From: Solirubrobacter soli DSM 22325
Lineage (GTDB): Bacteria > Actinomycetota > Thermoleophilia > Solirubrobacterales > Solirubrobacteraceae
DNA length: 64,000 nucleotides
Direction: 5' to 3'
Assembly (NCBI RefSeq): GCF_000423665.1
Contig: NZ_AUIK01000036.1
Span: 1-64,000, forward strand
The translations under genes and the position numbers were made by a program. The notes below the pieces were generated by a model. It did no database searches and was not told the DNA's origin. It saw nothing but the letters and a program-made list of their open reading frames with translations. Shown piece after piece: positions 39,600-46,769 of the stretch. Position 1 is the stretch's first letter; every line of letters starts with the position of its first letter.

Positions 39600-39653
39600 G
39601 GTCCTCGTCTCGGGGTCACCCCATTTCGCCGTCCGGCCGATGGCGGGAGGGTC

Positions 39654-40475
39654 GTGACCATGAGAACACGATCCACACGCTCGGGGCTCGAGGAGCGCCG
39701 GCGCGACGAGGGCGACGCGGCGCGCCGGAGGCCCGAGGCCGCGATCCTCGCTCTGCAGCGCAGCGCCGGCAACCAGGCGGTGGCCCGCGTCCTGCAACGG
39801 CGGTCGCTTCAGCGCTTGCAGGAGATGGACGTTCCGCGGGAAGAGAAGAAGGAATACGAACGCGTCAAGAAGCTCTACGCGGACAGCTTCAATGACGGCA
39901 AGCCCTTCGCGGCCTATGAGACGAAGGGAACGTGGGTTGCACTCCGCAACGCGGCGCAGAACGTTGCGGAGCTCGTCCAGACGATCGACACGCTCGTCGC
40001 GCAGGCGAAGGCCGCGATGCCGCAGGCCGCGAAGACGGCCGCGCCGGAGCCGAAGGCGCCACAGAAGCGCTCGGGCCGGGGCACCAAGACGATCCAGGTC
40101 GGCACGCTCGACGAGTACGTCCTCAATGAGGGCAAAGACCCGGCCGACGTCGCGAAACCCGTCGACAGCCTCCCTCCCCACCTCGCGAACGTCCAGCGAG
40201 CGCTCGACAACTGGGGCGTGGACGGCCATGCCGGAATGGGCCAGGAGACCGTGCGCCTGGACCGCGACGACGTGATCCTGGTCTACCGGTACATCACCGC
40301 CAAGTGGGCGGCGACGCCGTTCAAGGGCCTTGGCTCGGGCCGACACGCGGGCGTGTACCAACTCAAGGTGAGCGACACGCGCAAGCACCCGGTGTCGCAG
40401 AAGCAGCTCACGTGGCACATGGACCTGTCGCAGGACACCTACGCGAACCTTCCGCCGTACATCAGAGAGCGGTAG
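39654..40475 (+). CDS. Unknown protein with LQR-AGN-AV-LQR N-terminal motif (injection-system-linked type)
   Basis: A 273-residue soluble protein. After a basic N-terminus, residues 31-49 read ILALQRSAGNQAVARVLQR. I know this motif from actinobacterial proteins, often with DUF4157 domains, associated with extracellular contractile injection systems. It is followed by a coiled-coil-like charged stretch (52-115), a Pro/Ala/Lys linker (117-135) and a C-terminal domain (136-273; DEYVLNEGKDPADVAKP, GRHAGVYQLKVSD, LTWHMDLSQDTY) that I do not recognise. No HExxH is present. GTG 39654 has a good SD (gggaggg). A cargo or effector role is a hypothesis. Confidence 0.65.
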   Translation: MTMRTRSTRSGLEERRRDEGDAARRRPEAAILALQRSAGNQAVARVLQRRSLQRLQEMDVPREEKKEYERVKKLYADSFNDGKPFAAYETKGTWVALRNAAQNVAELVQTIDTLVAQAKAAMPQAAKTAAPEPKAPQKRSGRGTKTIQVGTLDEYVLNEGKDPADVAKPVDSLPPHLANVQRALDNWGVDGHAGMGQETVRLDRDDVILVYRYITAKWAATPFKGLGSGRHAGVYQLKVSDTRKHPVSQKQLTWHMDLSQDTYANLPPYIRER

Positions 40476-40484
40476 TGCGAATGG

Positions 40485-41461
40485 TCAGAACGGGCTCGGC
40501 AGCGCGACCCGCGTCCGCACGGAGCGCCGGCGTCCGTCGAAGAGATGCAGCACGAACAGGCAGGCCAGCGCGACCACCGCGAGCAGGCAGAAGCCGAGCG
40601 CGTAGCCACCGGTCGCGGACTTCACGATGCCCATGACCAACGGCGGGAAGAAGCCGCCGAGCCCGCCCGCGGCGCCGACGACGCCGGTGACCGCGCCGAC
40701 ACGCTCCGGGAACCACTGCGGGACGAGCTTGAACACGGCGCCCGTGCCGAGGCCGAGGAAGACGCCCATGGTCAGACCCCGGTCAGCAGCTTCGGGAGGT
40801 ACAGGAACATCGCGACGAACCCGCCGAAGGCGAGGAAGTAGAACAGCGTCAGCGCCCACGCACGCCCGCTCTCGCGGAACACCCGCAGCGAGGCGAGCAT
40901 CGAGGCGCGCGGCGCGTTCGGGTCGGGAGCGGTCGCGTCTCGCGCGAGCACGGCGAAGAGCACCGCGGTCACGACGATCACGGCGGCGGCGATCCAGAAC
41001 GGCGCGGCAAGGCCCCACGCCTTGGCGATCTTGGGGGCGGTGAACCCGGCGAGCACCGAGCCGATCATCCCCATCCCGTACACGCCCAGCGCCATGCCTT
41101 GGCGCTCCGGGCTGTACCAGCGGTTGACGAACGGCACGCCGACGGCGAACGACGCGCCCGCGAACCCGAGCAGGAGGCCGAACACCAGCATTCCGGCGTA
41201 GGAGTCATGCCACAGCGCCAGCGCCACCAGCGGCAACGGGGTGAACGCCAGCAGCGCGATGAAGACCCGGCGTCCACCGTGGCGCTCGGCGAGGATGCCG
41301 AGCGGGATCCGCATCACCGAGCCGAGCAGCACCGGCACGGCGACCATGACCGCCAGCTGGAACTCGGTGAGGCCGAGGTGGTCCTGGAGGTCGGGTCCGA
41401 GTGGACCGAGCAGGCTCCAGGCGAAGAAGCAGGCGGCGAACGCGAGCGTGGCGAGGGTGAG
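40485..41461 (-). pseudogene. Broken NarK-type nitrate/nitrite transporter
   Basis: Sequence homologous to the intact narK at 48072-49208, in two frames. From 41461 (LTLATLAFAACFFAW) to 40775 ([11 protein letters not shown]) one frame matches the first half, then a TGA at 40772-40774 follows. Homology resumes in another frame at ATG 40769 ([20 protein letters not shown]) and runs to 40485. About 68-70 residues of the intact protein are missing at the junction, so roughly 200 bases were deleted and the frame was lost. No ATG, GTG or TTG exists upstream of Met at 41347 in this frame, so the start is lost too. Divergent from narG. Confidence 0.85.
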
Positions 41462-41568
41462 TGCCGGTGTGGGTGACCGGCGGGAGGGGGCGAACTACGG
41501 AGGCCATCGGCTCGCGTGCGGTGATAGCTTCGCGGCGCCACCTTCGCAGCGTGGAGAGGAGAGTCTTT

Positions 41569-44500
41569 GTGGCGTCACCACGGCTGACCGCGGCGCACGA
41601 GTTCTTCCGTAAAGGAGAGCCGAGCGCGGAGGGCTGGAGCATGCTGATCGCCCAGCGCCGCGGCTGGGAGTCGGCCTACCGCGACCGCTGGCGGCACGAC
41701 AAGGTCGTGCGCTCCACCCACGGCGTCAACTGCACCGGCTCGTGCTCGTGGAACGTGTACGTCAAGGACGGGCTGATCACCTGGGAGAGCCAGGCGGTCG
41801 ACTATCCGCGGACCGATCCCGGGCGGCCGAACCATGAGCCCCGCGGGTGTCCGCGCGGCGCGTCGTTCTCCTGGTACACGTACTCGCCGGTCCGGCTCAA
41901 GCACCCGTACGTCCGCGGCAGCCTGATCGAGCGCTGGCGCGCGGCGAAGGCCTCCTCGCCCGACCCGGTCGCGGCGTTCGCGCAGGTCGCGGCCGACGGC
42001 TCCCATCGCGGCGAGCGCGGCCGCGGCGGCTTCGTCCGCTGCAGTTGGGAGGAGGCGACGGAGCTGATCGCCGCGGCCACCGTGCACACGATCCGCGAGC
42101 ACGGCCCCGACCGCGTCGGCGGGTTCACCCCGATCCCCGCGATGTCACCCGTCTCGTTCACCGCCGGAACCCGGTTCCTCTCGCTGATCGGCGGCCACAC
42201 GACCACCTTCTACGACTGGTACGCGGACCTCCCGCCGGCATCGCCGCAGGTGTTCGGCGACCAGACCGACGTCCCGGAGTCGGCCGACTGGTGGGACGCG
42301 AGCTACCTGATCGTGTGGGGGACGAACCTCCCGATCACCCGCACGCCCGACGCCCACTTCATGACCGAGGCGCGCTACCGCGGCCAGAAGGTCGTCGTCG
42401 TCTCGCCCGACTACAGCGACCACGTCAAGTTCGCCGACGAGTGGCTGCCGGCGCAGCCCGGGACGGACGCGGCGCTGGCGATGGCCATGGGCCACGTGAT
42501 GCTCAAGGAGTTCTGGGTCGACCGGCCCGTCGGGCGCTTCGAGGACTACGGCCGGCGCTTCACCGACCTGCCGCTGCTGGTGGCGCTCGAGGAACGCGAC
42601 GACGGCACGCGGGTGCCGGGACGCTTCGTGATGGCGTCCGACATCGGCGACACGAGCGAGAACGCCGACTGGAAGCCTGTGCTGCTCGACGCCGCCACCG
42701 GCGAGCCGGCGGTCCCCAGCGGCTCGGTGGGCTTCCGCTACGGCGAGGAGGGCAAGGGGCGCTGGAACCTGCGGCTCGGCGACCTGGACCCCGTGCTGAC
42801 GCTGTTCGGCCGCCACGAGGAGACCGTCGAGGTCGCGCTGCCCCGCTTCGACGTCGGCGACAACCCCGGCGGCGCGGTGATGCGCCGCGGCGTGCCGGCG
42901 ATCCGCGTCGGCGGGCAGCTGGTGACGACCGTCCTCGACCTGATGCTCGCCACCTACGGCGTCGCCCGCGACGGGCTGCCGGGCGAGTGGCCGGAGGACT
43001 ACGACGACGCGTCCGTGCCATACACGCCCGCGTGGCAGGAGGCGATCACCGGCGTCGACCGCAAGCTGGCCGTGAAGATCGCGCGCGAGTTCGCCCGCAA
43101 CGCCGAGGTCAGCGGCGGGCGGTCGATGATCTGCATGGGCGCGGGCACCAACCACTGGTTCCACTCCGACGAGACGTACCGCGCGTTCATCGCCTTGCTG
43201 CTGCTCGGCGGCTGCGTGGGCATCAACGGCGGCGGCTGGGCGCACTACGTCGGGCAGGAGAAGATCCGCACGTTCGCAGGCTGGCAGCAGCTGGCGTTCG
43301 CGCTGGACTGGCGCCGACCTGGCCGGCAGGCCCAGGGCACCTCCTTCTACTACACGCACACCGAGCAGTGGCGGTACGACCGGATGCGCCCCGAGCTCTT
43401 CGCTTCGCCGCTCGGCGACGGCCGGTTCGCCGGGATGACGGCGATCGACGCGCACGCGAAGGCCGTGCGGATGGGCTGGATGCCCGCGTACCCGCAGTGG
43501 AACCGCAACCCGCTCGACGTCGCCGACGAGGGCGGCGAGGACCCGATCGCGCACGTCGTCGAAGAGCTCAAGGCGGGGAGGCTGCGCTACGCCGTCGAGG
43601 ACCCGAGCGCGCCGGAGAGCTTCCCGCGCGTGTTCTTCGTCTGGCGCTCGAACCTGCTCGGCTCCTCCGGCAAGGGCCAGGAGTACTTCCTGCGCCATCT
43701 GCTCGGCTCGACGCACGACGGGCCGCCGGCCGAGCCGCTGCCCGAGGGCGAGCGGCCGTCGGAGGTGCGCTGGCGCGACGAGATCCCCAACGGCAAGCTC
43801 GACCTGCTGGTCAACGTCGACTTCCGCATGACCACGACCGGGCTCTACTCGGACATCGTGCTGCCCGCGGCGACGTGGTATGAGAAGTACGACCTGTCGA
43901 TGACCGACATGCACCCGTTCGTGCATTCGTTCAACCAGGCCGTGCCGCCGCCGTGGGAGGCGCGCAGCGACTGGGACTGCTTCGGCGGCATCGCCCGCGC
44001 GTTCTCCGACCTCGCGCGCGAGCACCTCGGCGTGCGCCGGGACATCGTCTCCGGACCGGTGCAGCACGACACGCCGGGCGAGATCAGCCAGCCTCGCGGC
44101 GAGGTGCTCGACTGGCGCGCCGGCGAGTGCGAGGCGGTGCCGGGCAAGACGATGCCGGCACTGGCGGTGGTCGAGCGCGACTACGGCGCGGTCGCCGAGA
44201 TGTGGGCGTCGCTCGGCCCGCTCGCGGAGGAACTCGGCTCGGTGGTCAAGAGCGCGTCGTTCAAGCCCGATCGCGAGGTGAAGCAGCTCGCCGCGCGCAA
44301 CGGCGTCGCGCCCAACGGCCGCCCGTCGCTGGAGCGCCCCGAGCACGTCGCGGAGACGATGCTCGCGCTCTCGTGCGTCACGAACGGCCGCCTGTCGGTG
44401 GCGGGGTTCAAGTCGCTGGAGGAGCGCTGCGGGGTGCCGCTCGCCGACCTCGCCGAGGTCGCGGAGGAGACCCGCATCACCTTCCAGGACACGCAGGTGC

Positions 44501-45201
44501 AGCCGCGGCGGGTGATCACGTCGCCCGAGTGGTCGGGGATCGACGAGGAGGGCCGCGCCTACGCGGCGTTCACGATCAACGTCGAGCGCGACAAGCCGTG
44601 GCACACGCTGTCCGGCCGCATGCACCTCTACGTGGACCACGCGTGGATGCGCGAGCTCGGCGAGAGCCTGCCCGCCTTCCGCCCGCCGGTCGACCACCGG
44701 TTGATGCTCGCGGGCGCTCGGCCGGTCCCCAACGACGGCGTCCCGGAGGTGACGCTGCGATACCTCACACCGCACTCGAAGTGGTCGATCCACTCCGAGT
44801 ACCAGGACAACCTGCACATGCTGACGCTGTTCCGCGGCGGCTCGGGCCTGTGGCTGAGCCCGCAGGACGCCGCCACGATCGGCGTGGCGGACAACGACTG
44901 GGTCGAGGCCCACAACCGCAACGGCATCGTCGTCACACGCGCGGTGGTCTCCCACCGCGTCCCGGAGGGCGTGTGCCTGATGTACCACTCCAAGGACCGC
45001 CAGATCGGCACGCCGCGATCGCAGATCGACGGCCGCCGCGGCGGCACCGAGAACGCGCTCACCACGATCGCGATGAAGCCGACGCACATGATCGGCGGCT
45101 ACGCGCAGCTCTCGTGGGGACCGAATTACTACGGGCCGACCGGCTCCAACCGCGACTCGGTGACGATCGTCCGCCGCCGCAGCCAGGAGGTGAGGTACTA
45201 G
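41569..45201 (+). CDS. narG: Respiratory nitrate reductase, alpha (molybdenum) subunit
   Basis: A 1210-residue NarG, which reduces nitrate to nitrite at Mo-bis-MGD on the inner membrane face. The FS0 cluster ligands His51, Cys55, Cys59 and Cys94 have exactly the Escherichia coli spacing. The Mo-ligand Asp lies in WYADLPPASPQ (Asp220). The usual N-terminal segment without a twin-arginine export signal argues for a cytoplasmic active site. GTG 41569 has a SD (aggagag); longer frames add poor sequence. The TAG stop overlaps the narH GTG by one base. Confidence 0.96.
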   Translation: MASPRLTAAHEFFRKGEPSAEGWSMLIAQRRGWESAYRDRWRHDKVVRSTHGVNCTGSCSWNVYVKDGLITWESQAVDYPRTDPGRPNHEPRGCPRGASFSWYTYSPVRLKHPYVRGSLIERWRAAKASSPDPVAAFAQVAADGSHRGERGRGGFVRCSWEEATELIAAATVHTIREHGPDRVGGFTPIPAMSPVSFTAGTRFLSLIGGHTTTFYDWYADLPPASPQVFGDQTDVPESADWWDASYLIVWGTNLPITRTPDAHFMTEARYRGQKVVVVSPDYSDHVKFADEWLPAQPGTDAALAMAMGHVMLKEFWVDRPVGRFEDYGRRFTDLPLLVALEERDDGTRVPGRFVMASDIGDTSENADWKPVLLDAATGEPAVPSGSVGFRYGEEGKGRWNLRLGDLDPVLTLFGRHEETVEVALPRFDVGDNPGGAVMRRGVPAIRVGGQLVTTVLDLMLATYGVARDGLPGEWPEDYDDASVPYTPAWQEAITGVDRKLAVKIAREFARNAEVSGGRSMICMGAGTNHWFHSDETYRAFIALLLLGGCVGINGGGWAHYVGQEKIRTFAGWQQLAFALDWRRPGRQAQGTSFYYTHTEQWRYDRMRPELFASPLGDGRFAGMTAIDAHAKAVRMGWMPAYPQWNRNPLDVADEGGEDPIAHVVEELKAGRLRYAVEDPSAPESFPRVFFVWRSNLLGSSGKGQEYFLRHLLGSTHDGPPAEPLPEGERPSEVRWRDEIPNGKLDLLVNVDFRMTTTGLYSDIVLPAATWYEKYDLSMTDMHPFVHSFNQAVPPPWEARSDWDCFGGIARAFSDLAREHLGVRRDIVSGPVQHDTPGEISQPRGEVLDWRAGECEAVPGKTMPALAVVERDYGAVAEMWASLGPLAEELGSVVKSASFKPDREVKQLAARNGVAPNGRPSLERPEHVAETMLALSCVTNGRLSVAGFKSLEERCGVPLADLAEVAEETRITFQDTQVQPRRVITSPEWSGIDEEGRAYAAFTINVERDKPWHTLSGRMHLYVDHAWMRELGESLPAFRPPVDHRLMLAGARPVPNDGVPEVTLRYLTPHSKWSIHSEYQDNLHMLTLFRGGSGLWLSPQDAATIGVADNDWVEAHNRNGIVVTRAVVSHRVPEGVCLMYHSKDRQIGTPRSQIDGRRGGTENALTTIAMKPTHMIGGYAQLSWGPNYYGPTGSNRDSVTIVRRRSQEVRY

Positions 45202-46769
45202 TGCTCGTCAAGGCGCAGGTGGCGATGGTCATGAACCTCGACAAGTGCATCGGCTGCCACACCTGCTCGGTCACCTGCAAGCAGGTCTGGACGAACCGGC
45301 CGGGCACCGAGTACGTCTGGTTCAACAACGTCGAGACCGCCCCCGGGCAGGGCTATCCGCGCCAGTGGGCCGATCAGGCGCGCTGGAAGGGCGGCTGGAT
45401 GCTGGACCGCAAGGGCCGGCTCAAGCTCCGCGCGGGCGGGCAGGTGAAGAAGCTGCTGACGATCTTCTCCAACCCCGATCTGCCCGCGATCGACGACTAC
45501 TACGAGCCCTTCACGTACGACTACGAGACGCTCGTCGACGCGCCGCTCGGCGACTTGGACCCGGTCGCCCGCCCGCACTCGCAGCTCACGGGCAGGCCGA
45601 TGGACGTCAAGTGGGGCCCGAACTGGGACGAAGGGCTGGCCGGCGGGCAGGAGTCCGCGCCGCTGGACCCCCACATCCGCGCCATGCAGGAGGAGGTCCG
45701 CCTGACCTACGAGCAGGCGTTCATGTTCTTCCTGCCGCGGATCTGCGAGCACTGCCTGAACCCGTCGTGCGTGGCCAGCTGCCCGTCGGGCGCGATGTAC
45801 AAGCGCGACGAGGACGGCATCGTGCTCGTCGACCAGAACAAGTGCCGCGGCTGGCGCTACTGCGTCTCCGGCTGCCCGTACAAGAAGGTCTACTTCAACC
45901 ACCGCACCGGCAAGGCCGAGAAGTGCACGCTCTGCTATCCGCGGATCGAGAACGGCCAGCCGACGATCTGCTCGGAGACCTGCGTCGGGCGCATCCGCTA
46001 CCTCGGCCTCGTGCTCTATGACGCCGACCGGGTGCAGGCCGCCGCGTCGGTGCCGGACGAGCGCGACCTGCTGGCCGCCCAGCGCGACGTGTTCCTCGAC
46101 CCCGAGAACCCGGAGGTCCGCGAGGCCGCGCGCCGTGAGGGCATCCCCGAGGACTGGCTCGACGCCGCGCGGCGCTCGCCGGTGTACGACCTCGCGATCC
46201 GCTGGGGCGTGGCGCTGCCGCTGCATCCGGAGTTCCGGACGCTGCCGATGGTCTGGTACGTGCCGCCGCTCTCCCCCGTCGTCTCGACCCTGGAGACCGA
46301 CGGCTACGAGGCCGATCCCGACGACGTCTTCGGCGCGATCGATCACCTCCGCATCCCGCTCGAGTACCTGGCGAACCTGCTGACCGCGGGTGACACGGAG
46401 GCGATCCGGTTCGTCCTGCACCGGCTCGCCGCCATGCGGGCGTACATGCGCAAGCTCGAGGTGCTCGGGTCCTCCGACGAGGAGCTGCCCGCTCGGGTGG
46501 GCCTGAACGCGGTCGAATTGCGGCGCATGTACCGGCTGCTGGCGATCGCCAACTACGAGGACCGCTACGTGATCCCGCTCGCGCACGCCGAGCTCGGCGA
46601 GCGCCTGATGCAGGAGCAGGGCAGCTGCGGGCTGGACTTCGCGGGCGGCCCGGGCAACTGCGGCGCGGTCGATCCGCGCCCCGACACGTCCTCGCCGCAC
46701 GTCCCCTACGACGGCGAGCGCTTCCACCTGATCGACATCCTCCAGCGCGAGGAGCGGCCGGGGCCATGA
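45201..46769 (+). CDS. narH: Respiratory nitrate reductase, beta (iron-sulfur) subunit
   Basis: A 522-residue electron-transfer subunit. Four cluster-binding sets are visible: CIGCHTCSVTC near the N-terminus, CEHCLNPSCVASC, CRGWRYCVSGC (the Trp replaces a Cys, as in the 3Fe-4S centre of NarH) and CTLCYPRIENG with CSETC. The aromatic NHRTGKAEKC region is conserved. GTG 45201 follows a strong SD (aggaggtgagg). It passes electrons from NarI haems to NarG. Overlaps narJ by 4 bases. Confidence 0.96.
   Translation: MLVKAQVAMVMNLDKCIGCHTCSVTCKQVWTNRPGTEYVWFNNVETAPGQGYPRQWADQARWKGGWMLDRKGRLKLRAGGQVKKLLTIFSNPDLPAIDDYYEPFTYDYETLVDAPLGDLDPVARPHSQLTGRPMDVKWGPNWDEGLAGGQESAPLDPHIRAMQEEVRLTYEQAFMFFLPRICEHCLNPSCVASCPSGAMYKRDEDGIVLVDQNKCRGWRYCVSGCPYKKVYFNHRTGKAEKCTLCYPRIENGQPTICSETCVGRIRYLGLVLYDADRVQAAASVPDERDLLAAQRDVFLDPENPEVREAARREGIPEDWLDAARRSPVYDLAIRWGVALPLHPEFRTLPMVWYVPPLSPVVSTLETDGYEADPDDVFGAIDHLRIPLEYLANLLTAGDTEAIRFVLHRLAAMRAYMRKLEVLGSSDEELPARVGLNAVELRRMYRLLAIANYEDRYVIPLAHAELGERLMQEQGSCGLDFAGGPGNCGAVDPRPDTSSPHVPYDGERFHLIDILQREERPGP

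Follow-up and report, generated by a model that had tools for sequence, protein, structure and literature searches.

The gene at 39660..40475 (forward strand) in a 64,000-nucleotide stretch of the Solirubrobacter soli DSM 22325 genome (contig NZ_AUIK01000036.1; the whole stretch is called the window here) probably encodes one payload of a contractile injection system (CIS). Its product carries a short N-terminal motif, the LQR-AGN tag, which would act as a CIS docking or loading tag common to a large set of unlinked payloads. We favor this reading because the tag is shared by many proteins of the genome, co-occurs with CIS in two phyla, is found in CIS operons beside an AAA ATPase, and stands on paralogues with toxin-like enzyme domains. 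A first-pass annotation of the window had placed an open reading frame (ORF) at 39654..40475 and the motif at residues 31-49, exactly as we find them.

The tag and the tagged protein set

The tag of this protein (39744..39800, +) is ILALQRSAGNQAVARVLQR at residues 31-49, numbered from a GTG start at 39654. The consensus of the tag is LALQR[STG]AGN[QA]AV.R[LM]LAR. The ORF scored 38.3 bits against the tag profile, in which its own tag is 1 of 34 rows. Shuffled N-termini (n = 9000) reached at most 9.6 bits, and none of the 300 control genes, taken from other genes in fetched stretches of the S. soli genome, matched. The tag therefore exceeds chance expectation.

A first profile (A1; eight rows, three of them from the S. 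soli genome) gave 40 matches in the S. soli genome at E ≤ 1, 31 of them at E ≤ 1e-3. Matches were kept if they lay in an open frame with a coding-type GC pattern and had the GN pair 19 to 69 residues after the chosen start. This left 37 proteins (30 of the 31 stronger and 7 of the 9 weaker matches), with start sites chosen by us; the first-pass annotation, which proposed such a search, had described one. The three remaining matches (C1:11648, C8:279237, and C31:16410) looked doubtful and were left out. The 37 tagged genes are spread over 16 contigs. Measured within contigs, the smallest distance to a CIS locus is 52.6 kb, so that all 37 fall outside a 50-kb limit, which supports the earlier picture of unlinked cargo. 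The GN pair is present in all 37 proteins, in windows that had been anchored on GN, and Q stands four residues ahead of G in 35.

With the tag removed, phmmer found 2 of 666 protein pairs alike at E < 1e-3; two tagged DUF4157 proteins form a third related pair by Pfam that phmmer missed. By sequence comparison, the set combines a constant N-terminus with mostly unrelated C-termini, as in polymorphic toxin systems. Most of the 37 had no Pfam match. Matches above the family cut-off were eCIS_core (twice), EndoU, GDPD, DUF922, PG_binding_1, M15, SH3_3, and OmpA; the M15 match is a d-Ala-d-Ala carboxypeptidase, and GDPD and the EndoU nuclease are further enzyme types. Below the cut-off were an AID/APOBEC-like deaminase, a nucleotidyltransferase, an AstE-like protein, and others. 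NCBIfam gave only subthreshold matches for the 10 tagged proteins compared with it. The motif had been said to precede DUF4157 often. That holds for 2 of the 37 proteins (contigs C6 and C30), and the other 35 lack DUF4157. The tagged EndoU nuclease (L088:4226-5113, contig C17) is not linked to a CIS.

CIS loci in S. soli and tagged genes within CIS operons

CIS core genes are present in the genome of the tagged gene, which contains three CIS loci. The sheath family PF04984 matched in five places, Pvc16_N (PF14065) in three, and DUF4157 (PF13699) in three; AAA and Baseplate_J genes were found as well, so the absence of injection genes, named beforehand as an outcome that would refute the idea, was not observed. 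The locus on contig C4 encodes AAA, Pvc16_N, the sheath and its C-terminal domain, the gp19 tube, gp25, Baseplate_J, and eCIS_core. Two loci on contig C3 were identified from sheath and Pvc16_N matches, one of them also with AAA; their remaining genes were read locally only. The C4 DUF4157 protein, encoded directly ahead of the AAA gene, bears a degenerate tag, VGNQAFGGAIAR, and is outside the set of 37. The DUF4157 proteins on C6 and C30 have a full tag, and their contigs have no sheath match. As the first-pass annotation had it, no structural injection genes are near our gene: searches for sheath, DUF4157, and Pvc16_N gave no match on its contig (C28). The C4 locus ends with a very long Ala/Pro-rich frame (L018:8275-13998, C4:56275-61998) that runs out of the fetched stretch; it has repeated lytic-type segments by eye, and no tag was seen in it.

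In another Solirubrobacter genome (G002), tagged genes lie within a CIS region. On one strand, an AAA gene (1253828-1255810) is directly followed by two tagged genes and these by sheath, tube, and gp25 genes. The first tagged protein has 468 aa and an NfeD-like end; the second frame, of 649 aa, has a PLD-like domain (PLDc_2, 2.9e-17). Neither matched DUF4157 in a local search or in Pfam. The PLD-like protein, at L199:9420-11366, is inside the CIS operon. A CIS-type AAA ATPase gene adjoins tagged genes in G002 and in loci L062 and L071. In a Streptomyces alkaliphilus genome with no Pvc16_N match, a tagged DUF4157 gene adjoins a CIS-type AAA gene. CIS genes flanked 4 of 32 named tagged loci in a local search with S. 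soli queries. A tagged gene within a CIS operon is not a rule for Solirubrobacter, since none was seen in the fetched CIS stretches of G004 and G005, which span part of each locus.

Association of the tag with CIS across genomes

A second profile (A2) was built from 34 of the 37 S. soli tags. Since it contains S. soli tags only, matches in other genomes are independent of it. Pvc16_N served as the CIS marker, and the co-occurrence counts leave out the S. soli genome. Among 296 Actinomycetota genomes, 14 were tagged, S. soli included, and 25 matched PF14065, with one match falling short of the family cut-off. Pvc16_N was present in 24 of the 295 others: in 11 of the 13 with a tag versus 13 of the 282 without one (Fisher p = 6e-12). 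Among 301 Chloroflexota genomes, 24 were tagged and 60 had Pvc16_N (59 over the cut-off), with an overlap of 22; the marker was thus present in 22 of 24 tagged versus 38 of 277 untagged genomes (p = 2e-15). When two genomes that had been reached via the tag (G390 and G394) were omitted, 20 of 22 tagged genomes had Pvc16_N (p = 4.6e-14). The tag tracks CIS in two phyla, in agreement with the link drawn in the first-pass annotation. It is not widespread elsewhere, being found in 2 of 271 Pvc16_N-negative Actinomycetota and 2 of 241 Pvc16_N-negative Chloroflexota genomes. The two Actinomycetota are G179, which has a sheath match, and G284, which has none. Tag counts per genome in both surveys are lower bounds, as at most 26 to 27 candidates per genome were scored. 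For 10 of 38 and 9 of 79 tagged places, a Pvc16_N match lay no more than 25 kb away.

The 32 named loci gave a further comparison. With 15 Solirubrobacter loci and one Solirubrobacterales metagenome-assembled genome (MAG) left out, Pvc16_N was present in 14 of 16 tagged genomes, two of which also belong to the Chloroflexota set; the misses were the S. alkaliphilus genome and a Pseudonocardiales MAG. A local profile of three DUF4157 sequences showed that 10 of the 16 have a tagged ORF that lacks DUF4157, and Pvc16_N is present in 9 of these 10; L062, one of the 10, carries a DUF4157-like flank. In six other Solirubrobacter genomes (G001 to G006), the tag occurs at 21, 10, 4, 12, 21, and 21 places, respectively, and each genome has a single sheath match; G001 and G006 seem to be almost the same. 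A tag-only search of plasmids and phages at E ≤ 1 found nothing. A scan of viral contigs with A2 found one locus (L203) with two tagged ORFs, one of them with DUF4157. These tandem ORFs (L203:1821-4397, from IMG/VR) may belong to a CIS fragment of cellular origin that was binned as viral.

The N-terminal region and the putative payload

AlphaFold2 modeled a 56-residue tag region, with 29 aligned relatives, as a single bare helix with a mean predicted local distance difference test score (pLDDT) of 79.4, rising to 95-96 in the core of the tag. By eye, the positions V/I-8, L-5, A-1, A+3, and L+7, counted from G, fall on one helix face, with small residues in mid-face, a pattern that may resemble a docking helix. 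Structure prediction had been proposed earlier for residues 136-273; a single-sequence model of the whole protein (mean pLDDT of 40.4) was not usable.

The 37 N-termini were compared with those of the 300 control genes using simple composition scores. The first 35 residues were more hydrophilic in the tagged set (median of -0.61 versus 0.07; p = 2e-7), and disorder-promoting residues were commoner at positions 6-21 (0.75 versus 0.56; p = 4e-11). A transmembrane-like stretch was found in 0 of 37 tagged proteins versus 24% of controls. The N-terminus of a CIS effector or EAT (eCIS-associated toxin) is expected to be hydrophilic, disordered, slightly positive, and not of the Sec type, with an aromatic residue among its first eight. 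Hydropathy and disorder-type composition are in line with published extracellular CIS (eCIS) signals (PMC11297309; here and below, cited articles are represented by parts of their text).

The C-terminal part of our protein was described in the first-pass annotation as unrecognized and unlike DUF4157, and it remained so in all comparisons. The best PDB match of the putative payload had an E value of 0.93, no relative being confirmed there, and searches of plasmids and of phages with it found no match. Residues 61-273 gave no confirmed relative among viral contigs, and a weak PHROG match (E = 0.0075) covered residues 99-125. When the whole protein was searched against 101 genomes (its own and 100 relatives), five matched, its own included; on inspection, nothing but the tag region recurred. 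Weak C-terminal matches in G033 and G028 were rejected because they are antisense to long coding frames, which we take to be trehalose-synthase-like. Among the sequences searched, the payload thus appears to be an orphan. We would guess that it is toxic because of the domains on its tagged paralogues.

Proposed role and alternative explanations

In the mechanism that we propose, the protein would begin with a charged leader, probably disordered, and continue into a short amphipathic helix, the tag. Docking on the CIS by means of this helix would lead to loading of the protein. The docking partner would most likely be a Pvc15-like AAA ATPase or a DUF4157/spike adaptor, and the C-terminal part would be an exchangeable effector. 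The payload may then be injected and act antagonistically. The wider generalization, that in many Actinomycetota and Chloroflexota one N-terminal helix is a common CIS loading address and each machine draws on tens of scattered, interchangeable payloads, mostly of unknown families, seems to us evenly balanced between true and false.

Several observations weigh against a payload role. The gene lies far from CIS genes, neither in nor beside a CIS operon. Its protein lacks PF13699 (DUF4157, eCIS_core) and has no family match in Pfam or NCBIfam, and no toxin domain was recognized in it. No immunity gene was seen beside it by eye, and no immunity-family search was made. Neither a tagged gene nor a DUF4157 gene was seen in the partial CIS stretches fetched from G004 and G005. 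The tag is absent at threshold from 13 of 24 Pvc16_N-positive Actinomycetota genomes and from 38 of 60 in Chloroflexota, and the co-occurrence statistics ignore phylogeny and genome size. The N-terminus tests used start sites chosen by us, and the net charge of residues 6-21 (median of -1 in tagged proteins versus 0 in controls; p = 0.24) is not in line with the published eCIS signal, which is described as positive (PMC11297309).

Three other explanations were weighed against the payload reading. The tag may dock proteins on the CIS as accessory or self-acting factors, involved in assembly, cell-wall passage, or programmed lysis of the producer, and not as injected payloads. Cell-wall-type domains on several paralogues (M15, PG_binding_1, SH3_3, and OmpA) are consistent with this, as are reports that a Streptomyces CIS acts on its producer (PMC10066040, PMC10020575, and PMC11126660). 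EndoU and PLD-like domains and more than 30 different C-termini, however, would seem beyond accessory needs, and we consider this explanation unlikely. A role for the tag in some other trafficking or regulatory route, with the CIS link arising from shared lineages or large environmental genomes, is less likely still. It would fit the distance of all 37 genes from same-contig CIS loci, the low number of CIS-flanked loci (4 of 32), and the tagged genomes without Pvc16_N (G179, with its sheath match; G284, with none; G586; G623; and 2 of the 16 named ones). It is harder to reconcile with tags inside CIS operons adjoining an AAA ATPase gene, with an association found separately in two phyla, or with Pvc16_N in 9 of 10 named non-Solirubrobacter genomes that have a DUF4157-free tagged ORF in the local test. 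Finally, the motif is short and alanine-rich, and 3 of the 40 matches in the S. soli genome appear spurious, as would be expected of chance or of a generic amphipathic helix in GC-rich proteins. The shuffle and control-gene tests, the Q four residues before G in 35 of 37 proteins, and the rarity of the tag where Pvc16_N is absent make this explanation very improbable.

Relation to known cargo systems

EATs and DUF4157/PVC-metallopeptidase effectors share with the tagged set a constant N-terminus, variable and often enzymatic C-termini, and CIS-positive genomes (PMC3482391, PMC8213781, and PMC11297309). A hydrophilic N-terminus is also common to both; an adjacent immunity gene is often lacking (PMC11297309), and none was seen by eye beside our gene. 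They differ in that the constant part of the tagged set is a conserved helix of about 19 residues, DUF4157 is absent from 35 of 37 proteins, and its many genes are unlinked. The EAT survey classed 2,194 genes from 950 genomes as EATs, took a genome to have very few of them, and reported no detected conserved signal sequence (PMC11297309). An earlier account treats the metallopeptidase as the constant part and, in the portion available, describes no upstream helix (PMC3482391). Cargo of the Photorhabdus virulence cassette (PVC) relies on N-terminal signals and on the Pvc15 AAA ATPase to enter the tube, and signal peptides of eCIS lineage I can be grouped by sequence alignment (PMC11495950). PVC cargo thus resembles the tagged set in having an N-terminal signal proposed to address the CIS and a CIS-type AAA ATPase that is involved or encoded adjacently. 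PVC signals, in contrast, are disordered peptides of 50-70 residues on cargo encoded downstream of the operon (PMC11495950), whereas the tag is a strict motif, predicted to be helical, on mostly unlinked genes. In Streptomyces, cargo is tied to the spike via a DUF4157 protein (PMC13277306). Sle1/Sle2 and Tme are likewise CIS cargo of actinobacteria with ties to DUF4157 proteins and to the spike or baseplate; unlike the tagged set, they are tape-measure-like and encoded in the CIS cluster, and the available text mentions no LQR-AGN tag (PMC13277306 and PMC11126660).

The portions of PMC8213781 and PMC12961389 at hand do not mention an LQR-AGN-type motif, and an exact-string literature search for the motif matched only work on protein linkers. 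No publication was recognized as describing the tag; subscription papers and preprints were outside the search, and prior mention is possible. The tag bears on the choice of cargo by CIS and on the number of cargoes per system, matters on which PMC11297309, in its available part, reported no conserved loading sequence. With a strict, searchable tag, payloads could be listed anywhere in a genome and loading could be tested by mutation. It would also point to dozens of uncharacterized payload domains.

Gene structure and neighborhood

Read from GTG 39654, the ORF (39654-40475, +) encodes 273 aa. ATG 39660, which gives 271 aa (coordinates include the stop codon), is the likelier start because a Shine-Dalgarno-like GGGAGGG (39645..39651, +) stands 8 nt upstream; both were read from the sequence. 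In the 271-aa form, the G of the GN pair is residue 37, so the tag is near the N-terminus. Codon-position GC of 0.69/0.46/0.89 fits a gene at 39660..40475. All parts are on the forward strand. The charged, hydrophilic leader (39660..39743) precedes the tag; the Kyte-Doolittle mean of the first 35 residues is -1.40 (median of the 300 controls, 0.07). After the tag come a middle region (residues 50-117, 39801..40004), helical in the low-confidence whole-protein model only; an Ala/Pro/Lys-rich linker read from the translation (residues 118-145, 40005..40088); and the putative payload (residues 146-273, 40089..40472), for which the searches described above gave no relatives.

A search around the gene for a sigma-70-like promoter and for a terminator found neither, and a 1152-aa antisense ORF covers most of the gene. 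Its neighbors, named by eye, are an oxidoreductase-type gene and an MFS-type gene. The MFS-type transporter gene downstream (40485-41347, -) is read in two frames that overlap, as would follow from a frameshift, either a mutation or an assembly error. Farther on, at 41461-46769 (+), large molybdoenzyme-like and iron-sulfur-like ORFs look by eye like a nitrate reductase-type operon.
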